A stretch of DNA of 40,372 nucleotides, from contig CACIVM010000005.1 of assembly GCA_902590115.1 (NCBI GenBank), positions 1 to 40,372 on the forward strand, read 5' to 3'. The position numbers and the translations under genes are program-made. The DNA comes from an uncultured Pelagibacteraceae bacterium. Lineage in GTDB: Bacteria > Pseudomonadota > Alphaproteobacteria > Pelagibacterales > Pelagibacteraceae. Below are positions 5,493 through 24,555 of the stretch, in pieces. The notes below the pieces were generated by a model, which saw only the letters and a list, made by a program, of their open reading frames with translations, was not told the origin of the DNA and made no database searches. Positions within the stretch are counted from its first letter, which is position 1. Every line of letters starts with the position of its first letter.

Positions 5493-6161
5493 ATGAAGGA
5501 CTCAAAATTTATATTTTTTTTATTATTCCTCATAGTAATTTTTTCTACTTATGCTCCGACAAAAAATAAAAAACAAAATCTCTTCTCTATAAATAAAATA
5601 TTAATACAAGGGGAAAATAGAATAAACTTTTCTGAGCTTTCAAATAAGCTATCTCTAATAAAAGGAAAGAATTTGTTATATATTTCTAATGCCGACATTG
5701 CAAAACTTTTAGATAATTTTAAACAAATAGATTACGTAAAAATAAAAAAAATTTACCCCGATACAATAAAATTGATTATAGAAGAGAAAGAAATAATAGG
5801 GATTACCTCTCGGAATAATGAATTATTTCTTGTTACTCAAGATGCTGATTTAATAACGTTCGATAAAAATGATATTCATAATATTCAAAAATTAATTTTT
5901 ATAGAGGGAGATGTTAAAAAATTCTTATCATTATATAAGAGTCTCAATTTACTAAATTTTAGAGTCGAAAATATTAAGAGTGTCCAATACTTTGACATTG
6001 GAAGATGGGATATTAAGATGAAAGACGGCATCAAAATTAAATTACCAGTTGAAAATTATACCTCTAGCTTAAAAAATTTTAAAAATTTAAAGAGTGAAAA
6101 TAGATTGGAGAAATTTACGATATTTGATTACAGAATAGAAAATGAATTAATTTTAAAATGA
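5493..6161 (+). CDS. ftsQ: Cell division protein FtsQ (POTRA domain)
   Basis: This 222-residue bitopic membrane protein belongs to the divisome assembly platform. One transmembrane helix lies at about residues 6-22, directly at the N terminus with almost no cytoplasmic tail. A POTRA-like segment follows (FSINKILIQGENRINFSEL, about residues 30-48), then a FtsQ/DivIB beta domain containing the IYPDTIKLIIEEKE pattern. It is shorter than typical FtsQ. Position between ddl and ftsA, and the ATGA overlap with the next gene, support the call. Confidence 0.87.
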   Translation: MKDSKFIFFLLFLIVIFSTYAPTKNKKQNLFSINKILIQGENRINFSELSNKLSLIKGKNLLYISNADIAKLLDNFKQIDYVKIKKIYPDTIKLIIEEKEIIGITSRNNELFLVTQDADLITFDKNDIHNIQKLIFIEGDVKKFLSLYKSLNLLNFRVENIKSVQYFDIGRWDIKMKDGIKIKLPVENYTSSLKNFKNLKSENRLEKFTIFDYRIENELILK

Positions 6162-16437: not shown

Positions 16438-17826
16438 TTACTTTGGCCTAGTCATTAAAAATGGATTCATAATTTTATCATATTCTTTTTCTGTTAGAAT
16501 TTTTGATTTTAAAATCTCCTCCTTCAAGGTTGTTCCTTTTTTATGTGCTGCTTTAGCAATCTTAGCAGCTTTGTCATACCCAATCTTTGGAGTTAAAGAA
16601 GTCACAAGCATTAAGGAATTTTTTAAAAGACTATCAATCCTTTTTTTATTAGCTTTTATTCCACTCACACAATATTTTGCGAATGTCATAGACGAGTCAG
16701 CCATAATCTCTATTGATTGTAATATATTATGGATAATAAGTGGTTTAAAAACATTAAGCTCGAAATGACCATGAGAACCAGCCATAGTAATACCATTATG
16801 ATTTCCAATTACTTTGACGCATACCATTGTTACAGCTTCAGTTTGTGTTGGATTTATTTTTCCAGGCATTATTGATGAACCAGGTTCGTTCGATGGAAGA
16901 ATTAATTCACCGTAACCTGCTCTAGGTCCTGATCCCAAAAATCTTATATCGTTTGCAATTTTCATTAAAGAAACCGCAGCTGTATTTAGTGTTCCGGAAA
17001 AATTGACAATTGGATCATGTCCGGCTAAAGCAGCAAATTTATTTTTAGCAGACCGAAAAGGTATTTTCGTTATTTTACTAATTTCTTTTACAACTTTTTT
17101 ATCAAAACCTTTTCTTGTATTTAGCCCCGTTCCTACCGCAGTGCCTCCTTGTGCTAAAAAGTATATTTCTTTAAGTGCGTGTTCTATTCTTTCTATACAT
17201 TTGTTTAGCTGGGATTGATAACCAGAAAATTCCTGACCTAATGTAATTGGGGTTGCGTCTTGTAAATGAGTCCTACCAATTTTTACAATATTTTTAAATT
17301 GCCTAGTTTTTTTTTGGAGCTCCTTATTTAATAACTTAAGAGAAGGCAATAACTTTTCTCTAGTCTTTATTGCGATTGCTATATGCATTGCTGTTGGAAA
17401 AACATCATTAGTTGATTGAGATTTATTTACATGATCATTAGGGTGAACCGGAGTTTTACTTCCCATCTTGCCTCCCATTAATTGAATTGCTCTATTTGCA
17501 ATTACTTCATTAACGTTCATATTTGTCTGAGTGCCCGACCCAGTTTGCCAAACCTTTAGAGGGAAATTATCATTTAATTTACCTTTGATTACTTCATCTG
17601 AGGCTCTAATTATAAACTTACAAATCTTTTTGTCTAAATCTTTATTCTTGGCATTAACAATGGCTGCTGCTTTTTTTATAACGGCTATAGACTCGATAAC
17701 TATAGGTCTAACAAGAAAGTCACCAATATTAAAATATTTATTTGATCTTTGAGTTGAAGCTCCCCAATACTTATCACCAGGTACTTTAATTTTTCCTATA
17801 CTGTCAAACTCAGTTCTGTATTTCAT
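16438..17826 (-). CDS. fumC: Class II fumarate hydratase
   Basis: FumC is the iron-independent, homotetrameric TCA cycle enzyme that interconverts fumarate and L-malate. The 462-residue protein carries the superfamily signature [13 protein letters not shown], the [19 protein letters not shown] segment and [14 protein letters not shown] and [10 protein letters not shown] substrate-site motifs. The [11 protein letters not shown] and NDHVN features favour fumarase over aspartase or argininosuccinate lyase. It is divergent from the MazG-like gene across a 61-base AT-rich gap that must hold both promoters. Confidence 0.97.
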
Positions 17827-17887
17827 TAGTGATTCTATGGTATATTACACTTTAATTAATAATTAATAAATTATAAATGGAGCAAAA

Positions 17888-18259
17888 ATGAGTAACTTTG
17901 AAAGTGTAAAAAAATTCATGTTAAAATTCGGTCAAGAAGTTAAAGAAAATGCTGATTTTCCTTCAGAAAAAATAACCAAATTAAGATATGATTTAATAAG
18001 TGAAGAATTGGGCGAACTGAAGTCTGCCATAGGCAAAAAAGATTTAAAAGAAATTGCTGATGCGCTTACTGACATATTATACGTTACTTATGGAGCCGGA
18101 CATGCCTTTGGAATAAACTTAGATAAATGCTTTCAAGAAGTTCAAAATTCAAATATGAGCAAGCTAGGTAATGACGGAAAACCTATATATAACGAAAGCG
18201 GCAAAGTTATGAAAGGGCCAAATTATTTTAAACCTGATTTAAGCAAATTTGTAGCATGA
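17888..18259 (+). CDS. MazG-like nucleotide pyrophosphohydrolase
   Basis: This 123-residue all-alpha protein shows the metal-binding pattern of the MazG/PRA-PH superfamily: ISEELGELKSAI (E-x2-E-x2-E type helix) followed by KEIADALTDILYVTYG (E-x2-D/x3-D helix). Such enzymes hydrolyse nucleoside triphosphates or related nucleotides; the substrate cannot be told from the sequence. A ribosome site GGAG lies five bases before the ATG. The C-terminal segment PIYNESGKVMKGPNYFKPDL resembles phage and bacterial homologues acting on nucleotides. Confidence 0.82.
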   Translation: MSNFESVKKFMLKFGQEVKENADFPSEKITKLRYDLISEELGELKSAIGKKDLKEIADALTDILYVTYGAGHAFGINLDKCFQEVQNSNMSKLGNDGKPIYNESGKVMKGPNYFKPDLSKFVA

Positions 18260-18862: not shown

Positions 18863-18887
18863 AGGGGCGTTCTGTTGCTAGGTGCCC
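18863..18887 (-). repeat. tmRNA 3'-end repeat, copy 1 (outermost)
   Basis: This 25-base copy matches the 3'-terminal hairpin of the tmRNA gene at 23305-23329 with one difference (TTGCTAGG instead of TTGCCAGG). It has the same orientation as the tmRNA. The flanking CTAACCCC also resembles the tmRNA continuation GAACCCC. I interpret it as the most distal attachment-site copy left by stacked integrations at the end of ssrA. Confidence 0.75.
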
Positions 18888-18901
18888 TAACCCCAATTAA
18901 A

Positions 18902-19108
18902 TTAACCTTTAAATAAATTTAAAGCTTTCTTTAAAAGTTTTTCTGAATTAGCGTGATTGCCACTTGAATGTTCCTTTACACCTTCGTCATGAAGCTTTTT
19001 TGCCTCTTCAATTTTGGATTGCACTTGACCTGCTAACATCGGACAAGAACCTGCAAACGCCGAACTTGTAAATAACGTGACTGCTAAAATTAATAATATT
19101 TTTTTCAT
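18902..19108 (-). CDS. Small secreted protein (68 aa)
   Basis: The product starts MKKILLILAVTLFTSSAFAG, a clear Sec signal with predicted cleavage after AFA, leaving a mature helical peptide of about 48 residues (CPMLAGQVQSKIEEAKKLHD, then GVKEHSSGNHANSEKLLKKALNLF). The mature part looks like one TPR-like helical hairpin and has a single Cys. I chose the ATG at 19108 because the signal starts there; an in-frame ATG 33 bases upstream would add a polar lead. The function is unknown. Confidence 0.72.
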   Translation of the reverse strand: MKKILLILAVTLFTSSAFAGSCPMLAGQVQSKIEEAKKLHDEGVKEHSSGNHANSEKLLKKALNLFKG

Positions 19109-19159
19109 GATTATTACTAAATTATTGGAATTTAATTTCACTGCGACCTATCAGCTTTA

Positions 19160-19180
19160 AGGGGCATTCTGTTTCGCCCT
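19160..19180 (-). repeat. tmRNA 3'-end repeat, copy 2 (degenerate)
   Basis: AGGGGCATTCTGTTT followed by CGCCCT keeps both ends of the tmRNA-end hairpin but has lost several internal bases. It lies in the same orientation as the other copies and forms the left boundary of the restriction-modification cassette. Confidence 0.55.
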
Positions 19181-19220
19181 CAATTTTAATTATTAACAGA
19201 AAATAAGACTTTTTGGAACG

Positions 19221-19274
19221 ACTTCATTGAGAGTTTTAACTTTTGTCCTGAACCTTGTTTTGAAACTTCATTGA
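19221..19274 (+). repeat. Left-end iterated motifs of the RM cassette
   Basis: ACTTCATTGA occurs at 19221-19230 and 19265-19274. The second copy is embedded in a sequence starting AACCTTGTTTT (19251) that recurs with one mismatch at 21480-21503 near the other end of the cassette. The second copy overlaps the -35 region of the candidate methyltransferase promoter. Confidence 0.75.
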
Positions 19275-19303
19275 GGTTTGTTAATTTTGCATGATATTAT
19301 GCA
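19271..19303 (+). promoter_or_regulatory. Candidate methyltransferase promoter with palindromic operator
   Basis: TTGAGG (19271-19276) and TATTAT (19295-19300) are 18 bases apart, placing the start about 11 bases before the methyltransferase ATG. The palindrome TGCAT-N6-ATGCA (19288-19303) covers the -10 box, as an operator for autoregulation would. Confidence 0.35.
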
Positions 19304-19317
19304 TTGATTCTTAAATT

Positions 19318-20643
19318 ATGAATAAAAAATTTGCTATTAGTTTGTTTAGTTCATCAGGTATTGGAGATATTGCTCTGAAAAAAAGCAAATATAATGTTTT
19401 AGTAGCAAATGAATTATTAGAAGATAGGTCTAAATTATATAAATTAAATTTTCCAGAAACAGAAATGATAACTGGAGATATCTGGATTAAAAAAGAAGAG
19501 ATTATAAAAACAACAAAAAAATTAGTTAGAAACAATAAATTAGATTTGGCATTAGTTTCTCCACCCTGTCAAGGAATGTCAAAAAATGGAAGAGGAAAAT
19601 TATTGTCTGAAATAAAAGCAGGGAGAAGACCAAAAGAAGATCCAAGAAATGCTTTAATTATTCCTGCAATAGAAATTATTTCTTCTTTGAAACCAGAGAC
19701 AATCGTTTTTGAAAATGTAATAGAGATGAAAAATACTTTAATAAGTATTAAAAAAAAAGCATTGTTGATTACTGATTATATTAAAGAAAAATTACCCGAA
19801 TATATTGTTGATGTGAATGAAGTTAATTTTGCAGATTATGGAGTGCCACAAAATAGGAAAAGATTAATTACTATTGTAACGAAGAATAAAAAATTAATTA
19901 ATTTTTACAATAAATTTGGCACTTTGATTCCTGAAACTACTCACTCTAAACAAGGCAAAGATAAAAAGAAATGGATTTCTGTAAAAGATAAAATTTTTGG
20001 ATTAGAAAAACTGGATGGAAAGTTAAAATTAAGATCAGAAAATGATCCTCTTCACAAAATTGTAAAATTAGATGATAGAAAATATTGGTGGGTATCAAAT
20101 ACTCCTTCAAATGAGAGTGCATTTAATAACCAATGCATTAATTGTAATTATAAGGAAAATTTAAGACACACTTCAAAAAAAAATTCATCTGGAGTTAACA
20201 CTTCTTCTAAGAACACTCCTATTTATTGTTCGAAATGCAAGAGTCTTTTACCAAGACCCACAACTATAAAGAACAATATAGTTAAGTTGATGAAAGGGTT
20301 TACAAGTGCATACAAAAGAATGAGTTGGTCAGAACCTGCAAGTACAATTACCAGAAATTTTCCATATGTGTGTAGTGATAATAAGATACACCCTCAACAA
20401 CATAGAGCATTGTCATATCGTGAGGCATGTATCTTGCATACAATAGAAAAACAAGATTTTAAATTTATTGATGATAGCAAAAACCAAACTAATGATGTTT
20501 TAATTAGAGATACTTTAGGTGAGAGCATTCCACCAAAATTTTTAGAAACTTTATTAGAGTTTTTTGAGAAAATTGAAAAAAAAAAAATAACTTTTAAAAT
20601 TCCAAAGCAACAAAAATTTTTATTTACTCAATCTTTGAATTAG
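19318..20643 (+). CDS. DNA (cytosine-5-)-methyltransferase of a type II RM system
   Basis: The 441-residue protein methylates cytosine C5 in a specific DNA site, protecting it from the neighbouring nuclease. Conserved motifs appear in order: motif I FSSSGIGDIAL (atypical for FxGxGG), motif IV with catalytic Cys84 in SPPCQGMS, motif VI FENVIE (132-134 ENV), motif VIII YGVPQNRKR, and motif X GESIPPKF near the C terminus. An insert in the target-recognition region has a CxxC...CxxC pair (C273, C276, C304, C307), which looks like a zinc ribbon. The gene converges on the endonuclease gene with a 24-base overlap. Recognition site cannot be deduced. Confidence 0.93.
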   Translation: MNKKFAISLFSSSGIGDIALKKSKYNVLVANELLEDRSKLYKLNFPETEMITGDIWIKKEEIIKTTKKLVRNNKLDLALVSPPCQGMSKNGRGKLLSEIKAGRRPKEDPRNALIIPAIEIISSLKPETIVFENVIEMKNTLISIKKKALLITDYIKEKLPEYIVDVNEVNFADYGVPQNRKRLITIVTKNKKLINFYNKFGTLIPETTHSKQGKDKKKWISVKDKIFGLEKLDGKLKLRSENDPLHKIVKLDDRKYWWVSNTPSNESAFNNQCINCNYKENLRHTSKKNSSGVNTSSKNTPIYCSKCKSLLPRPTTIKNNIVKLMKGFTSAYKRMSWSEPASTITRNFPYVCSDNKIHPQQHRALSYREACILHTIEKQDFKFIDDSKNQTNDVLIRDTLGESIPPKFLETLLEFFEKIEKKKITFKIPKQQKFLFTQSLN

Positions 20644-21372
20644 TTTCTCACTAGGGTAAGTATCTTCATCTAAAAGCAAAATCATACCTTTATACATTTT
20701 AGAAATACCTTTTTTATTCATAATACTTACTGATGTAGTTCTACCGCCACCTTCTTTGGGTTTTACTGTTTCACCCCAATCAGACATTTCTAGATCATTT
20801 GAATACATAATTGAAATAATTGTTGGTATATTATTCACAAAATCCCAAATTATACCCAACAAATTATTTGTAAATCTGTGATGTGATTTCCAATTATAAC
20901 CAGTAACATATTCTAATCTTGGGTCACCCAAATCAGGTTTTTTAATATTTTTTTCAGTAAACCATTTTCCAGATTTTAAATCTCCACATGTTGCTTTAAC
21001 CTCTATTCCACCAGTTTCAAAATAACTAAATGGTTCTTTTTCATGCATTCTGTTTTTAAATTTATTCCAAGCATTTTTTCCAATTTTATCCATAATCAAT
21101 AGATCTGGATAACCATCTTGGTGAGGATTTTTTTTTATTTTAGTCTTAGATACTTTACAAACTGAAATATTATACAATTCACCTATAAAAGAACTTAGAT
21201 TTCTTAAACCTAAAACTTGTCCTATAGGTAACTCTATTTCCTCAAATGTTTTTAGATAATTGTTAAATGTATCTATTGCATCAATAAAATATTTTATATC
21301 AACAGTACCTTTTGAATTGTCTTTCCTAACAAAGTTTATTTTTTTACTCTTTGAAAAATTTTTATAATTCAT
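20620..21372 (-). CDS. Type II restriction endonuclease, PD-(D/E)xK fold
   Basis: The 250-residue protein has a plausible PD-(D/E)xK nuclease core: GYPDLLIMD (PD at 89-90) and GGIEVKATCG (E124, K126), with a preceding conserved-looking Glu in FIGELYN. The catalytic assignment fits the fold spacing, and the position next to a methyltransferase makes a restriction enzyme the best reading. I do not recognise the specific subfamily or cut site. The genes are convergent with overlapping 3' ends, which gives each its own promoter and lets methylation appear independently of the nuclease. Confidence 0.8.
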   Translation of the reverse strand: MNYKNFSKSKKINFVRKDNSKGTVDIKYFIDAIDTFNNYLKTFEEIELPIGQVLGLRNLSSFIGELYNISVCKVSKTKIKKNPHQDGYPDLLIMDKIGKNAWNKFKNRMHEKEPFSYFETGGIEVKATCGDLKSGKWFTEKNIKKPDLGDPRLEYVTGYNWKSHHRFTNNLLGIIWDFVNNIPTIISIMYSNDLEMSDWGETVKPKEGGGRTTSVSIMNKKGISKMYKGMILLLDEDTYPSEKLIQRLSK

Positions 21373-21450
21373 AAATATTTTATGAAGAATGCCAGATTTA
21401 TAAAATATTGCTACGATTAATATTTAGCAGTTATTTGATTAAATTTAAGC

Positions 21451-21476
21451 GTTATACACGCACTTGCGCGTATAAC
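21451..21476. promoter_or_regulatory. Stem-loop upstream of the endonuclease gene
   Basis: GTTATAC (21451-21457) pairs with GTATAAC (21470-21476); after one A/C mismatch CGC pairs with GCG around an ACTT loop. It lies about 80 bases before the endonuclease start and 18 bases from the right-end motifs. It could be an operator for the nuclease gene, or a structural element of the cassette end. Confidence 0.4.
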
Positions 21477-21493
21477 GGCAACCTTGTTTTCAA

Positions 21494-21526
21494 ACTTCAT
21501 TGAAACTTCATTGAGGACTTCATTGA
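21494..21526 (+). repeat. Right-end iterated motifs of the RM cassette
   Basis: ACTTCATTGA occurs three times, at 21494-21503, 21505-21514 and 21517-21526, with periods of 11 and 12 bases (about one helical turn). The same motif occurs twice at the other end of the cassette and I did not see it elsewhere in the window. The array ends 45 bases before the tmRNA-end repeat at 21572. Confidence 0.8.
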
Positions 21527-21571
21527 ACTTTTAAGAAAAAAGATGAGTAAGGACAAGGGAAATCTTTGGAA

Positions 21572-21596
21572 AGGGGCGTTCTGTTGCCAGGTGCCC
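21572..21596 (-). repeat. tmRNA 3'-end repeat, copy 3
   Basis: This is a 25-base perfect copy of the tmRNA terminal hairpin region (same as 23305-23329). It keeps the potential hairpin with GGGC/GCCC base and CTG-GCAA-CAG top on the minus strand. It separates the RM cassette from the next one. The roughly 70 bases to its right resemble those to the right of copy 4 closely, marking related cassette ends. Confidence 0.85.
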
Positions 21597-21662
21597 TTAA
21601 CCTTGTAACATTATTCTTTATTATACGCCATTCGCAATTACTTAAAATCTCAAACTTTGATG

Positions 21663-21686
21663 AAAATTCCGCCCCAGCTCCGCCCA
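21663..21686 (+). repeat. Left-end paired TCCGCC motifs of cassette A
   Basis: TCCGCC at 21668-21673 and 21679-21684 (period 11) sits in a 24-base block that recurs at 22335-22358 with two mismatches. The GC-rich motif is striking in this AT-rich sequence. It overlaps the -35 position of the extended -10 promoter (TGCTAGGAT) for the first cassette gene. Confidence 0.8.
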
Positions 21687-21693
21687 AAATTAT

Positions 21694-21701
21694 GCTAGGA
21701 T
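21694..21701 (+). promoter_or_regulatory. Extended -10 promoter of cassette A
   Basis: TG-C-TAGGAT at 21694-21701 is an extended -10 box. The expected start falls within two bases of the ATG at 21710, giving an essentially leaderless message. Cassette B has the same arrangement (TGCTAGAAT). Confidence 0.45.
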
Positions 21702-21709
21702 CGTGGAGT

Positions 21710-22012
21710 ATGAAAAAAGCTAAATGTTTTAAATGTGATAAAGTTTTAAAATTTAATCCAGGGTTTGGCGGTCATGGAGATTTTGTCTTAGATAAAAGAG
21801 ACAAAGATGGTTTAGATATTTTTATGTGTGGTTGTCCAAGAACATTAAGGTTTAAAATTGATGTTAAGCATTATATGAAAAACCGCTCTAAAGGGGATTT
21901 TATTGCTAAAACAGTTGATGCATATTTAGACTTCTCAGATGGTATGGATAAAAAACCAAAAAAAGTAAAAGGATCTTCTGCAAAAAAAATACTAGACTTT
22001 TTTGGATTTTAG
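21710..22012 (+). CDS. Small zinc-ribbon-like cytoplasmic protein (100 aa)
   Basis: The product has C6-x2-C9 and C40-x-C42, a likely single zinc-binding ribbon, followed by a basic C-terminal region (KKPKKVKGSSAKKILDFFGF). There is no signal peptide or membrane segment. I chose the ATG at 21710 since the extended -10 box ends eight bases before it; upstream in-frame starts lie within the promoter and the tmRNA-end repeat. I do not recognise the family. The basic tail and zinc ribbon could suit nucleic acid binding, which is only a guess. Confidence 0.65.
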   Translation: MKKAKCFKCDKVLKFNPGFGGHGDFVLDKRDKDGLDIFMCGCPRTLRFKIDVKHYMKNRSKGDFIAKTVDAYLDFSDGMDKKPKKVKGSSAKKILDFFGF

Positions 22013-22333
22013 ATGAAAAAACTTTTAGCGATCATAGTTCTGGGTTTATTGTGGAGCAATAATTCTTACGCAGGATTTTTAGGTAAAGATGGGATACAGG
22101 CGAATATTTATGCATGTAAAGCCCAACAAAAACAAAGACCTATTAATAAAAATATAGAAGAAGCTAAAATAAATAAATATTGTGAGTGTTATGTTAATAA
22201 ATTTGACAATTCATTAACACAAGCCGATGCAAGATATTACCAAGCAAATGGAAGATTTCCTGACTCAATAAGATCAAAAGTTTATGAAGCATCTAAAACT
22301 TGTGCTCTTAAAATTTTGAATAGAAAAGAATAA
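22013..22333 (+). CDS. Small secreted cysteine-containing protein (106 aa)
   Basis: The ATG directly follows the stop codon of the previous gene. A Sec signal (MKKLLAIIVLGLLWSNNSYA) predicts cleavage after A20. The mature 86 residues carry four Cys (C35, C57, C59, C97), compatible with two disulfides, and helices such as NIEEAKINKYCECYVNKFDN and SKVYEASKTCALKI. This spacing resembles small periplasmic helical-bundle proteins, but I recognise no family. Cotranscription with the zinc-ribbon gene is likely. Confidence 0.68.
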   Translation: MKKLLAIIVLGLLWSNNSYAGFLGKDGIQANIYACKAQQKQRPINKNIEEAKINKYCECYVNKFDNSLTQADARYYQANGRFPDSIRSKVYEASKTCALKILNRKE

Positions 22334-22334
22334 A

Positions 22335-22358
22335 AAAATTCCGCCATAGCTCCGCCCA
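22335..22358 (+). repeat. Right-end paired TCCGCC motifs of cassette A
   Basis: TCCGCC at 22340-22345 and 22351-22356 (period 11) repeats the left-end block in the same orientation. It begins two bases after the stop codon of the secreted-protein gene and ends 56 bases before the next tmRNA-end copy. Confidence 0.8.
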
Positions 22359-22414
22359 GCTAGGTTGTATAATTTAAATCAGCAATATAAATTAAAGAAA
22401 ACTTGAAAGTTGTT

Positions 22415-22439
22415 AGGGGCGTTCTGTTGCCAGGTGCCC
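22415..22439 (-). repeat. tmRNA 3'-end repeat, copy 4
   Basis: A second perfect 25-base copy of the tmRNA terminal hairpin, separating cassettes A and B. The sequence to its right (about 22440-22509) aligns to 21597-21666 with only scattered differences, so the left ends of A and B share ancestry up to the arm motifs, where they diverge. Confidence 0.85.
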
Positions 22440-22505
22440 TTAACCTTTTAACATTATTCCTTATTATACGCCATTTGCAATTGTTTAAAATCTAAAACTT
22501 TGATT

Positions 22506-22532
22506 AAAATTACGAGTAGATTACGAGTGAAA
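22506..22532 (+). repeat. Left-end paired TTACGAGT motifs of cassette B
   Basis: TTACGAGT at 22510-22517 and 22521-22528 (period 11) replaces the TCCGCC pair found at the equivalent place in cassette A. The block recurs at 23226-23252 with three mismatches. It overlaps the -35 position of the cassette B promoter. Confidence 0.8.
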
Positions 22533-22538
22533 TCTTGT

Positions 22539-22546
22539 GCTAGAAT
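22539..22546 (+). promoter_or_regulatory. Extended -10 promoter of cassette B
   Basis: TGC followed by TAGAAT (22541-22546) forms an extended -10 box eight bases before the ATG at 22555, as in cassette A. The message would have a leader of only about two bases. Confidence 0.45.
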
Positions 22547-22554
22547 CATGGAGC

Positions 22555-22851
22555 ATGAAAAAACTTTTAACTCCAATTTTAATAGGCTATTTTGCTATCG
22601 GCTCAATCTTATCTTTTCCTATGGCTTTATCTTATGTTTATGCTCAGTGGTTTGTTTTAATTAACATGGGCTGGTCAGTTTTTAGTTTGTCTGGTTTAGG
22701 ATTTATAATGATGTCTGGTTATCTAATTGTTTTTTCACCAATGATAAGAGCAGTACTTTGGTTGCCATCATTAATTATGTGGTTCAACGATCCTGGCGCA
22801 TATAGCTTTATGATGTGGCTTGCACCAGGTTTTTACGCTTCTACAGGCTAA
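22555..22851 (+). CDS. Small multi-pass membrane protein (98 aa)
   Basis: The product is almost wholly hydrophobic, with three to four predicted helices: PILIGYFAIGSILSFPMAL, YAQWFVLINMGWSVFSLSG, FIMMSGYLIVFSPMI and a final one around AVLWLPSLIMWF. There is no enzymatic motif. The ATG at 22555 is preferred over a GTG at 22537 that lies in the promoter. The stop overlaps the start of the next gene (TAATG). Function unknown; in a mobile cassette a small membrane protein could act in defence or as a toxin, but nothing in the sequence shows this. Confidence 0.65.
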   Translation: MKKLLTPILIGYFAIGSILSFPMALSYVYAQWFVLINMGWSVFSLSGLGFIMMSGYLIVFSPMIRAVLWLPSLIMWFNDPGAYSFMMWLAPGFYASTG

Positions 22852-23210
22852 TGGGAATATTCAATAAAATTTTTGGAAAGAAAAAAAGTTCAAAACTAGA
22901 TCCGCCTTTGTTAGATGAAAAATTTCATGGGTTGATGGGGTTAGAATTTGGCATGTACTTAACCTGGGTTGAGGATACAACTGGCAAAAGTATTATGGGA
23001 AAAGAGCTAGAAAGAAGAATTAAAATGTTTTTACAAAAAGAAAAAAAATTAGGTCAAATCCAAGGCTTCAACAATACTGATGTAATGTACATAAATACAG
23101 TTGCATTAACTTGTGATATTAAAACAATGCAAAGAGAGAGAAAGAAAAATAAATTAGATGGTAGGTGGCCCCTAATGGAAAAACACATTGGTCTAAAAAA
23201 GAAAAAGTAA
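22851..23210 (+). CDS. Small soluble protein of unknown function (119 aa)
   Basis: The ATG overlaps the previous stop by one base (TAATG), so I start here rather than at an in-frame ATG 36 bases upstream inside the membrane-protein gene. The N terminus MGIFNKIFGKKKS is an amphipathic, basic helix that might associate with membrane; the rest is helical, with ELERRIKMFLQKEKK, and a basic tail ending HIGLKKKK. One Cys, no known motif. Coupled expression with the membrane protein suggests the two act together. Confidence 0.62.
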   Translation: MGIFNKIFGKKKSSKLDPPLLDEKFHGLMGLEFGMYLTWVEDTTGKSIMGKELERRIKMFLQKEKKLGQIQGFNNTDVMYINTVALTCDIKTMQRERKKNKLDGRWPLMEKHIGLKKKK

Positions 23211-23225
23211 TTAAAAACCTTAAAG

Positions 23226-23260
23226 AAAATTACGAGTCAATTACGAGTAAAAATACTCGT
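23226..23260 (+). repeat. Right-end TTACGAGT motifs of cassette B
   Basis: TTACGAGT at 23230-23237 and 23241-23248 repeats the left-end pair in the same orientation. A third, inverted unit follows: ACGAGTA (23243-23249), four A, TACTCGT (23254-23260). The block ends 44 bases before the tmRNA 3' end. Confidence 0.8.
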
Positions 23261-23303
23261 TAGGATAGTAAACATAATACGCAAATAGAATAAGTAAAGT
23301 TTG

Positions 23304-23561
23304 AAGGGGCGTTCTGTTGCCAGGTGCCCCGAACCCCGTTACTTAATTAACAAGTTAATTAAGCAGCAAGAGCAAATTTATCATTTGCATTTATAATTGG
23401 CCCGTTACGTCGGAACCATCTCGTACGAAAGAATAACTTTTAGACATCCGTCGAGCCTAATTCACCCCCTCAAGTTGTAAATGGTGGAGGTGGTGGGTAC
23501 TGCCCCCACGTCCGCAATGTTTATTACGAAATTCGTTTATCGTCATAGTTGGAAAACCAAC
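23304..23561 (-). ncRNA. ssrA: Circularly permuted two-piece tmRNA
   Basis: tmRNA rescues stalled ribosomes and tags nascent proteins. Reading the minus strand, the acceptor RNA comes first and ends at 23482 with CACCTCCACCA, preceded by a T-arm GTGGG-GGCAGTA-CCCAC. After a 12-base spacer the coding RNA starts at 23469 with GGGGGTGAATTAGGCTCGAC, matching the usual tmRNA 5' end. The 7-bp acceptor stem pairs fully and keeps the G3-U wobble required for alanylation. GGACGT and ATGTCT can form helix H2. The tag frame (23388-23359) reads ANDKFALAA-stop, and the stop sits in helix H5 (TTAATTAA-CTTG-TTAATTAA). The coding RNA ends with hairpin GGGGC/GCCCC capped by CTG-GCAA-CAG. Exact ends are estimates. 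Confidence 0.92.
23305..23329 (-). repeat. tmRNA 3'-end hairpin, the resident copy
   Basis: This is the in-place copy of the repeated sequence, forming the last helix of the tmRNA coding piece: GGGGC pairs with GCCCC, and CTG with CAG around a GCAA (GNRA-type) loop. Four more copies lie to the left in the same orientation. It is the likely attachment core for the cassettes. Confidence 0.85.
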
Positions 23562-23565
23562 GTTA

Positions 23566-23595
23566 ATAATATAAAACGTTTTAAATTAGATTCAA
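23566..23595 (-). promoter_or_regulatory. Candidate tmRNA promoter
   Basis: On the minus strand TTGAAT (23590-23595) and TATTAT (23566-23571) are separated by 18 bases. The expected start is near 23559-23561, at the GTTGG-TTTT-CCAAC hairpin (23548-23561) that I take as the first structure of the acceptor RNA. Confidence 0.45.
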
Positions 23596-23607
23596 TATTT
23601 TTTTCTT

Positions 23608-24555
23608 ATGAAATTAACCATAGAACAAAAAAAAGAAATTTCGGAACAACAATCTCAAAAAAATGAGACAAAAAGAGTTACTTCTCCTGAATTGGAAAAA
23701 ATTTTGTACGAAGCTTTGCCAGTTCTTGATCACGGATTCATTAGAGTGGTTGATTACATGGGTGATGACTCCTCAATCGTACAGTCAGCCAGGGTTTCTT
23801 ACGGAAAGGGCACAAAAAAAGTTTCAACTGATGAAGGTTTAATAAAATATTTAATGAGACATTGGCATTCTACTCCATTTGAAATGTGTGAAATTAAGTA
23901 TCATGTTAAGTTACCAATATTTATTGCACGTCAATGGATAAGACATCGAACAGCTAACGTAAACGAGTACTCTGCAAGATATTCAATTCTAGATAAAGAA
24001 TTTTACATTCCCGAAAAAGAGCAATTATCTGCACAATCTACTTCTAACCGTCAGGGAAGAGGAGATTTAATTACAGGGAAACAAGCAGATGAGGTACTCA
24101 AAATCTTAAAAGATGATGCAACTAGGACTTATGATAATTATGAAAAGATGCTTAATGAAAGATACGATGGCAGCACAATAGATGAAAATAAAACTGGTTT
24201 AGCCAGAGAATTAGCAAGAATGAATTTAACACTCAACTCTTATACTCAGTGGTATTGGAAAACAGATCTTTTAAATTTACTCAATTTTTTATTTTTAAGA
24301 GCAGACAATCATGCACAATATGAAATAAGAGTTTATGCAGAAAAAATGCTTGAAACAGTAAAAAAATGGGTCCCAATTACACATTCTGCTTTTATAGACT
24401 ATAGAGTTGGAGCAGTGCATGTCTCAGCAAAAGGTAAAAAAATAATTCAGAAAATGGCAAGGGGAGAAAAAATTAATTATGAAAATTCTGGACTATCTAA
24501 AAGAGAATGGAATGAATTAATGTCATCTTTCGATTTTAAGGATAAATTAATTTAG
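23608..24555 (+). CDS. thyX: Flavin-dependent thymidylate synthase ThyX
   Basis: ThyX makes dTMP from dUMP using FAD and methylene-tetrahydrofolate. The signature RHR-x7-S is present as [11 protein letters not shown] (112-122), the family hallmark. Other features are the N-terminal [12 protein letters not shown] and HSTPFEMCE segments, and the C-terminal [20 protein letters not shown] region for substrate contact. The 315-residue length is normal for alphaproteobacteria. It is divergent from tmRNA with about 47 bases between, and converges on the mrp gene with a 9-base overlap. Confidence 0.96.

Follow-up and report, generated by a model that had tools for sequence, protein, structure and literature searches.

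A restriction-modification cassette without an integrase, probably mobilised in trans, within a tandem array at the ssrA gene of a SAR11 bacterium

Cargo segments that are bounded by attL and attR, lack integrase and transfer genes of their own and stack in tandem by accretion were reportedly described by Pavlovic et al. in 2004 as cis-mobilisable elements (CIMEs). CIMEs derive from a known resident integrative and conjugative element. Islands at ssrA, the transfer-messenger RNA (tmRNA) gene, are known from Dehalococcoides, where, in the part of the paper drawn on here, they are tandem and marked by repeats of the ssrA 3' end; 16 have an integration module with a serine-recombinase integrase, and 15 have no such module and were suggested to be cis-mobilisable (PMC3146451). 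The additive flexible genomic island of Ca. Methylopumilus lies at tRNA-Lys and varies in content between 330 bp and 42 kb, and the same account, in its part used here, gives tycheposons a tyrosine recombinase of their own (PMC10872708). For SAR11, the available portion of one study reports that attC sites were not found with hypervariable regions (PMC2217521), and the available portions of two others mention neither tmRNA, nor additive, nor integrase (PMC7318151, PMC7542561). We found no description of ssrA cassette arrays in SAR11 among titles and abstract openings, and an earlier description elsewhere is possible. Here we describe a 40,372-nucleotide stretch of DNA from an uncultured Pelagibacteraceae bacterium (contig CACIVM010000005.1; hereafter the window), in which a type II restriction-modification (RM) gene pair is carried by one of several short cassettes in tandem at ssrA.

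The ssrA cassettes are like the Dehalococcoides islands in being tandem at ssrA. They are unlike them, as far as that account is drawn on here, in having repeats in an 11-bp register, a spacing that suggests a tyrosine integrase, in being mostly only 0.24-3.4 kb long and in the absence of a tyrosine integrase from the array stretches. Compared with the Ca. Methylopumilus island, the site here is tmRNA rather than tRNA-Lys, and arm repeats are not mentioned in the part of PMC10872708 at hand; unlike the tycheposons of that account, the ssrA cassettes examined have no tyrosine recombinase of their own. The array also differs from an integron in that no integron integrase lies beside it in an assembly that is 63.7% complete, and copies of the ssrA end form its boundaries. 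Like CIMEs, the window's cassettes have attL and attR without integrase or transfer genes (relatives were checked for integrases only) and are stacked in tandem. Unlike CIMEs, the ssrA cassettes have no parent element that we could find.

The sequence AGGGGCRTTCTGTT, from the 3' end of ssrA, recurs at positions 18863, 19160, 21572, 22415 and 23305 of the window, on one strand and in tandem. These five sites, or cores, are the only ones at up to one mismatch in the assembly of 732,702 bases in 40 contigs, an absence elsewhere that holds for the assembled part, and the control with the reversed pattern gave 0. The features that define the RM cassette are the following.

19160..21571, plus strand: RM cassette, from its tmRNA-end site to the base preceding the next site, with termini common to L197 and L198
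19160..19173, plus strand: left attachment-like site of the RM cassette, a 14-base tmRNA-end match that then diverges (TCGCCC...)
21572..21596, plus strand: right attachment-like site of the RM cassette and left site of the next cassette, a match of at least 24 bases
23268-23577, minus strand: permuted tmRNA gene (ssrA) with tag ANDKFALAA, found by ARAGORN

The Rfam model alpha_tmRNA matches ssrA at 23302-23599 on the minus strand with 220.7 bits. Four of the tmRNA-end sites match over at least 24 bases, and the site at 19160 alone is shorter (14 bases); its left sequence is also present in L073, L197 and L198. As in an integrative element, a repeat of the ssrA 3' end stands at the far boundary and the target gene is intact. 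The initial annotation had proposed that the RM pair is the cargo of a tmRNA-end cassette, and this is borne out by intact open reading frames (ORFs) between copies of the ssrA 3' end.

The RM cassette also has terminal repeats of its own. The word ACTTCATTGA occurs five times in the 40-kb window, and all five copies lie at the ends of this cassette.

19221..19230, plus strand: arm-type repeat ACTTCATTGA, +61 from the left core
19265..19274, plus strand: arm-type repeat ACTTCATTGA, +105 from the left core
21494..21503, plus strand: arm-type repeat ACTTCATTGA, -78 from the right core
21505..21514, plus strand: arm-type repeat ACTTCATTGA, -67 from the right core
21517..21526, plus strand: arm-type repeat ACTTCATTGA, -55 from the right core

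Paired arm sites of this kind serve arm-binding tyrosine integrases. Another word, ATTACGAGT, has four copies in the window, all at the ends of the cassette adjoining ssrA. The case is weaker for the middle cassette, whose word TCCGCCC has three exact copies, a result matched by 1 of 100 shuffles of the window.

The termini of the RM cassette recur elsewhere with other cargo. Of the 297 genomes of the order (one genome per species), 13 have its arm sequence at up to two mismatches. Eight stretches were fetched for it (L197-L204), and two of them contain a whole cassette of this type.

L197, 1986-9475: complete cassette, beside tmRNA
L198, 2861-4420: complete cassette, near the contig end, with no tmRNA in the stretch

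Both have arms at +61, +73 and +118 and at -78, -67 and -55; the window has +61, +105 and the same right trio. Against these two cassettes, the left terminus of the window's is 81-83% identical over 128-134 bp and the right terminus 93-94% identical over 142-152 bp, with no further DNA similarity at an E value of 1e-3 except the short arm repeats. The nine cargo proteins compared each match only themselves. The cargo of L197 includes an AlwI-type endonuclease (PF09491, 1e-43), a methyltransferase of the N6/N4 type and other defence-like genes; that of L198 is a DUF6804 protein plus a small one that matched nothing.

In the order as a whole, one core or more (25-mer, up to two mismatches) is present in 231 of the 297 genomes; the genomes of another family included in this survey had none by the same search. 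Within the genus, 45 of 61 genomes have a core, and by hand count 24 of the 61 have at least two. We examined 60 stretches from 59 genomes, all known to have a core and mostly at least two, and frequencies among these loci, chosen for their cores, accordingly do not stand for those in the order. Tandem cassettes with other cargo lie between fumC-mazG and ssrA-thyX in many relatives, with recurring flanks, and one site is nearly empty (L125: mazG ends at 5885 and the tmRNA begins at 5931). Six stretches (L077, L085, L086, L103, L112 and L114) have tandem tmRNA-end cores with no tmRNA found in the stretch by ARAGORN. In all, 98 cassettes came from 53 of 61 sources, the window included, after dropping cores with more than three mismatches to the 24-mer, unless a short core matched at up to one mismatch, and core pairs less than 240 bp or more than 10 kb apart. 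Family searches covered 150 of 168 cargo ORFs, again with the window, and the cargo is mixed among the matches listed, which were the 25 commonest families of each library, with DUF2784, trypsin-like, DUF805, superoxide dismutase, McrB-like and DpnI-like proteins and methyltransferases; 127 of the 168 ORFs are oriented towards the ssrA side. The 8.5-kb cassette at L103:3306-11821 holds a caspase-domain protein and a TPR-trypsin protein.

Terminal words like those of the RM cassette occur in a sizeable minority of this set. After a first wide-window test on 96 cassettes of up to 4 kb, the left window was set at +76 to +126 and the right at -92 to -42 from the core, and the six cassettes shorter than 300 bp were left out, giving 92, three of them from the window. 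A word repeated at a lag of 11 occurs on the left in 35 of 92 cassettes and on the right in 37 of 92, compared with 0, 0 and 2 of 60 in three control windows, and any other lag from 8 to 18 gives at most 13 cassettes with a self-repeat. The lag-11 repeat stands at either end in 50 of 92 and at both ends in 22. A word of at least 8 nt is common to both ends in 38 of the 92; the expectation from 20,000 re-pairings of ends is a mean of 8.9 (sd 2.7, maximum 23). When cassettes shorter than 700 bp are excluded, 27 of 60 have matched ends in these windows; five other pairs of windows gave 6-10 of 60. The 38 end-matched cassettes form 37 sequence clusters, and their words differ from one cassette to another, falling by manual grouping into at least three styles (xxCGxxx; TGxGxxx; ACTTCxxTGx). 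Matched ends are commoner in the innermost cassettes than in the others (28 of 51 versus 10 of 41, p = 0.005); the innermost ones adjoin ssrA wherever a tmRNA was detected.

An integrase to go with these ends was sought in several places. PF00589 has no match in any stretch from the 59 genomes (no search by name was made for serine recombinases), and phmmer with seven integrases found none in L069-L128. The ORFs of the window's cassettes match no integrase family in Pfam, and the ten ORFs of the two largest of the 98 cassettes contain no recombinase domain. An integrase of its own, which would mark an integrative element, was found neither in the window's cassettes nor in the stretches of the 59 relatives. 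The window's assembly has a single PF00589 match, on another contig. One family of tyrosine recombinases (304-325 aa) accounts for 29 of 35 examined integrase loci, and the stretches fetched for it contain no core. Given the wide variation among the arms, we judge this family unlikely to be the helper. The window genome's own copy of the family (L068, G000:C12:3482-3976) adjoins a gene read as a glycosyltransferase.

Taken together, the anatomy suggests, with a probability that we put at about two in three, that the RM cassette is an integrase-less and probably trans-mobilised element at ssrA. Each cassette would be a minimal non-autonomous integrative element of the form attL-cargo-attR. The circular cassette would recombine at the 3' end of ssrA through a tyrosine integrase that binds the arms and is provided in trans; integration would restore ssrA, and repeated insertion would stack the cassettes. 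The RM cargo would act as an ordinary type II system, its methyltransferase marking the host's sites and its endonuclease cutting unmarked incoming DNA, and post-segregational killing that keeps the cassette is a possible side effect. Binding, excision, transfer and restriction in vivo are steps that we infer beyond the anatomy. A broader proposal, which we hold tentatively and at somewhat short of even odds, is that the SAR11 ssrA is a family-wide, integron-like platform for gene capture built from integrase-less mini-elements. Each would have a paired arm address in the 11-bp register belonging to one of at least three scaffold classes, distinct helper integrases would each move their own subset, and RM or other cargo would be swapped between shared termini.

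Several observations weigh against mobilisation in trans. In four of the eight stretches fetched for the RM-type arms (L199, L200, L202 and L203), the left end (+61, +73, +117) is present and the right arms are missing. L201 has two arm words but lacks the left core, and in L204 both exact arm words and a core are absent; the single-ended copies have lowered our confidence. The RM cassette itself is without one of the left arms found in L197 and L198, and because of this missing arm it may no longer move. In the wider set, 54 of 92 cassettes fail the matched-word test, only 22 have the lag-11 pair at both ends, some (L096, L101) have ends of unlike types, and the arm windows were fixed after inspection of the data. 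No recombinase, excised circle or same-species occupied/empty polymorphism was seen, and no helper element was found in the assembly, the array stretches or the viral contigs. The exact 24-mer core does occur in eight viral contigs (L158-L165), each with a tmRNA gene, and three arm patterns hit 4, 0 and 0 viral contigs, those four being coreless and unrelated-looking; the core region had no match in phage records. The tmRNA tag is ADENLALAA in seven of the eight contigs, and L162 has a longer tag ending in ADENLALAA. At L203:1942-2171, the RM-type left end, with a degenerate core, directly adjoins a tRNA-Leu gene.

Some of these points would also fit a relic array, in which the cassettes are what is left of larger integrase-bearing islands or prophages at ssrA after deletion of the integrases, nothing moves any longer, and cargo varies by loss and homologous recombination. 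The array stretches without an integrase, the more frequent lack of matched ends in outer cassettes, the RM cassette one arm short and the several single-ended relatives all favour this account. Independent decay would, however, hardly produce three cassettes that agree so nearly in their termini and share no cargo, or 37 clusters among 38 cassettes with matched words, and we regard a relic as unlikely overall. Homologous recombination or natural transformation between the short cores could also swap cassettes with no recombinase, in keeping with the cassettes whose ends are of unlike types and with the high recombination that the available portion of PMC2217521 reports in coastal SAR11. Cores of 14-25 bp are short for such exchange, which moreover leaves the matched repeats at fixed core distances unexplained; we think it improbable.

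The terminal repeats might instead serve the cargo genes as operators or promoter elements and not be arm sites. This idea would fit the cassettes with matched ends, in which 57 of 63 ORFs that are 80 aa or longer share one orientation, and the left repeats of the window's two inner cassettes, which lie just upstream of the first ORF, yet identical words recur at the opposite end at fixed distances from the core, and we give the idea little credence. As for an assembly artefact at repeats, the 40 contigs and 63.7% completeness are reasons for caution, but the repeats are short ones, and G003 (L076), a genome in a single contig with a completeness rating of 99%, has this architecture too; we find this explanation scarcely credible. 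A cassette mobilised in trans thus remains our preferred reading of the locus.

The RM pair itself is intact by its sequence motifs, with a PPCQ/ENV methyltransferase and a PD...ExK endonuclease, and is a typical representative of a family already known.

19318-20643, plus strand: m5C DNA methyltransferase, 441 aa (PF00145, 3.5e-35)
20620-21372, minus strand: type II restriction endonuclease, 250 aa, PD...ExK (PADLOC REase_II, PDLC03564, 4.1e-55)

Among Pfam, NCBIfam and PADLOC, the endonuclease matches only PDLC03564, with no Pfam or NCBIfam match at an E value of 0.1; solved structures searched by sequence gave no match, and an AlphaFold2 model built from two sequences has a mean pLDDT of 33.6. 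We aligned six homologous pairs, from the window, isolate AG-896-A16 (titled uncultured Alphaproteobacteria; L006), a genome of the same class (L171), a Streptococcus suis phage, a Peribacillus plasmid and an E. coli plasmid. In these six, P89, D90, E124 and K126 of the endonuclease are invariant, as are the PPCQ, ENV and QxRxR motifs and C273, C276, C304 and C307 of the methyltransferase. Against L006, the endonuclease has a dN of 0.297 and a dS of 1.248 (dN/dS about 0.24) and the methyltransferase a dN of 0.380 and a dS of 1.267 (about 0.30). With dS above 1, these ratios suggest that both genes have been kept functional, for whatever reason.

The two genes are convergent and share 20620-20643, so that the 24-base overlap of the initial annotation is confirmed by the ORF coordinates. 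Its idea that the overlap balances expression fares less well. Convergent order is a trait of the family, found in five of the six homologous systems (the Peribacillus pair is divergent), whereas the overlap is 24 nt in the window, 15 in L006, 57 in L171 and 11 in E. coli, and the phage has a 58-nt gap. Because its length is not conserved, we set aside the overlap as a special regulatory device. The pair's nearest relative (L006:5452-8419) is flanked by direct repeats that are 82-91% identical over 93-196 nt, carries ACAGACAC/ACGCAGACAC words spaced 11-12 bp apart and has no tRNA detected by ARAGORN at the locus; it is perhaps another cassette system.

The distribution of the pair is patchy, as the initial annotation had expected. 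The endonuclease occurs in 1 of the 297 genomes of the order, namely its own, and a family-model search found it in 2 of 398 genomes of the phylum; neither gene matched in the 60 array loci, and no relatives of the endonuclease were found in the viral contig collection. Uniform presence at this locus in relatives, named beforehand as grounds for rejecting cargo status, was not seen. The Streptococcus phage phi-SsuHCJ31 has a SnaBI-like system that is likewise an adjacent and convergent pair, in a different host and carrier, with homologues at 41% for the endonuclease (tblastn) and 48% for the methyltransferase, and one annotation names its endonuclease 'R.SnaBI'. The site of SnaBI we take to be TACGTA, of which the assembly has 39; their density ranks 7 of 61 from the low end and their ratio 10 of 61, ranks for which rounded sizes of the relatives were used. 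Avoidance of TACGTA in the genome thus gives no clear signal, leaving this target unsupported, a further point that does not help our account of the cassette.

The SAR11 label is based on the genome size of the relatives, a G+C content of 29.6% and the permuted alphaproteobacterial type of the tmRNA. The rest of the array and its flanks are as follows.

16438..18259, both strands: conserved left flank, a fumarase-like gene (minus) and a MazG-like gene (plus), with homologues in 32 of 60 array loci each
18863..18887, plus strand: outermost recognisable tmRNA-end site, a match of at least 24 bases
18863..19159, minus strand: small 297-bp cassette with a 79-aa ORF at 18902-19141, read as a secreted protein
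21572..22414, plus strand: middle cassette, two ORFs, with TCCGCC(C) at 21668, 21679, 22340 and 22351
22415..22439, plus strand: tmRNA-end site separating the two inner cassettes, a match of at least 24 bases
22415..23304, plus strand: cassette adjoining ssrA, two ORFs, with ATTACGAGT at 22509, 22520, 23229 and 23240
23305..23329, plus strand: tmRNA-end site within the 3' end of ssrA itself, a match of at least 24 bases
23608..24555, plus strand: conserved right flank, read as thyX, with a homologue in 45 of 60 array loci

Pfam finds PRA-PH and MazG family matches in the left flank, whose fumarase-like gene is presumably fumC; the right-flank gene we likewise assume to be thyX. Relatives of the 79-aa ORF occur in 5 of the 60 array loci, of which L091, L108 and L123 have a tmRNA in the stretch and L085 and L114 have none.

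The larger finding is the carrier cassette system rather than the RM pair, and the cassette's own terminal repeats go beyond what the initial annotation described. Few bacterial groups are as abundant as SAR11, which is regarded as poor in mobile DNA. A precise, widely shared attachment site would make testable the question of how these bacteria gain strain-specific genes such as those for phage defence. Readable cassette boundaries would let metagenomic reads count cassette turnover, and the arm words indicate which integrase to seek. Similar stacks with other cargo in many relatives may point to a platform for swapping genes.

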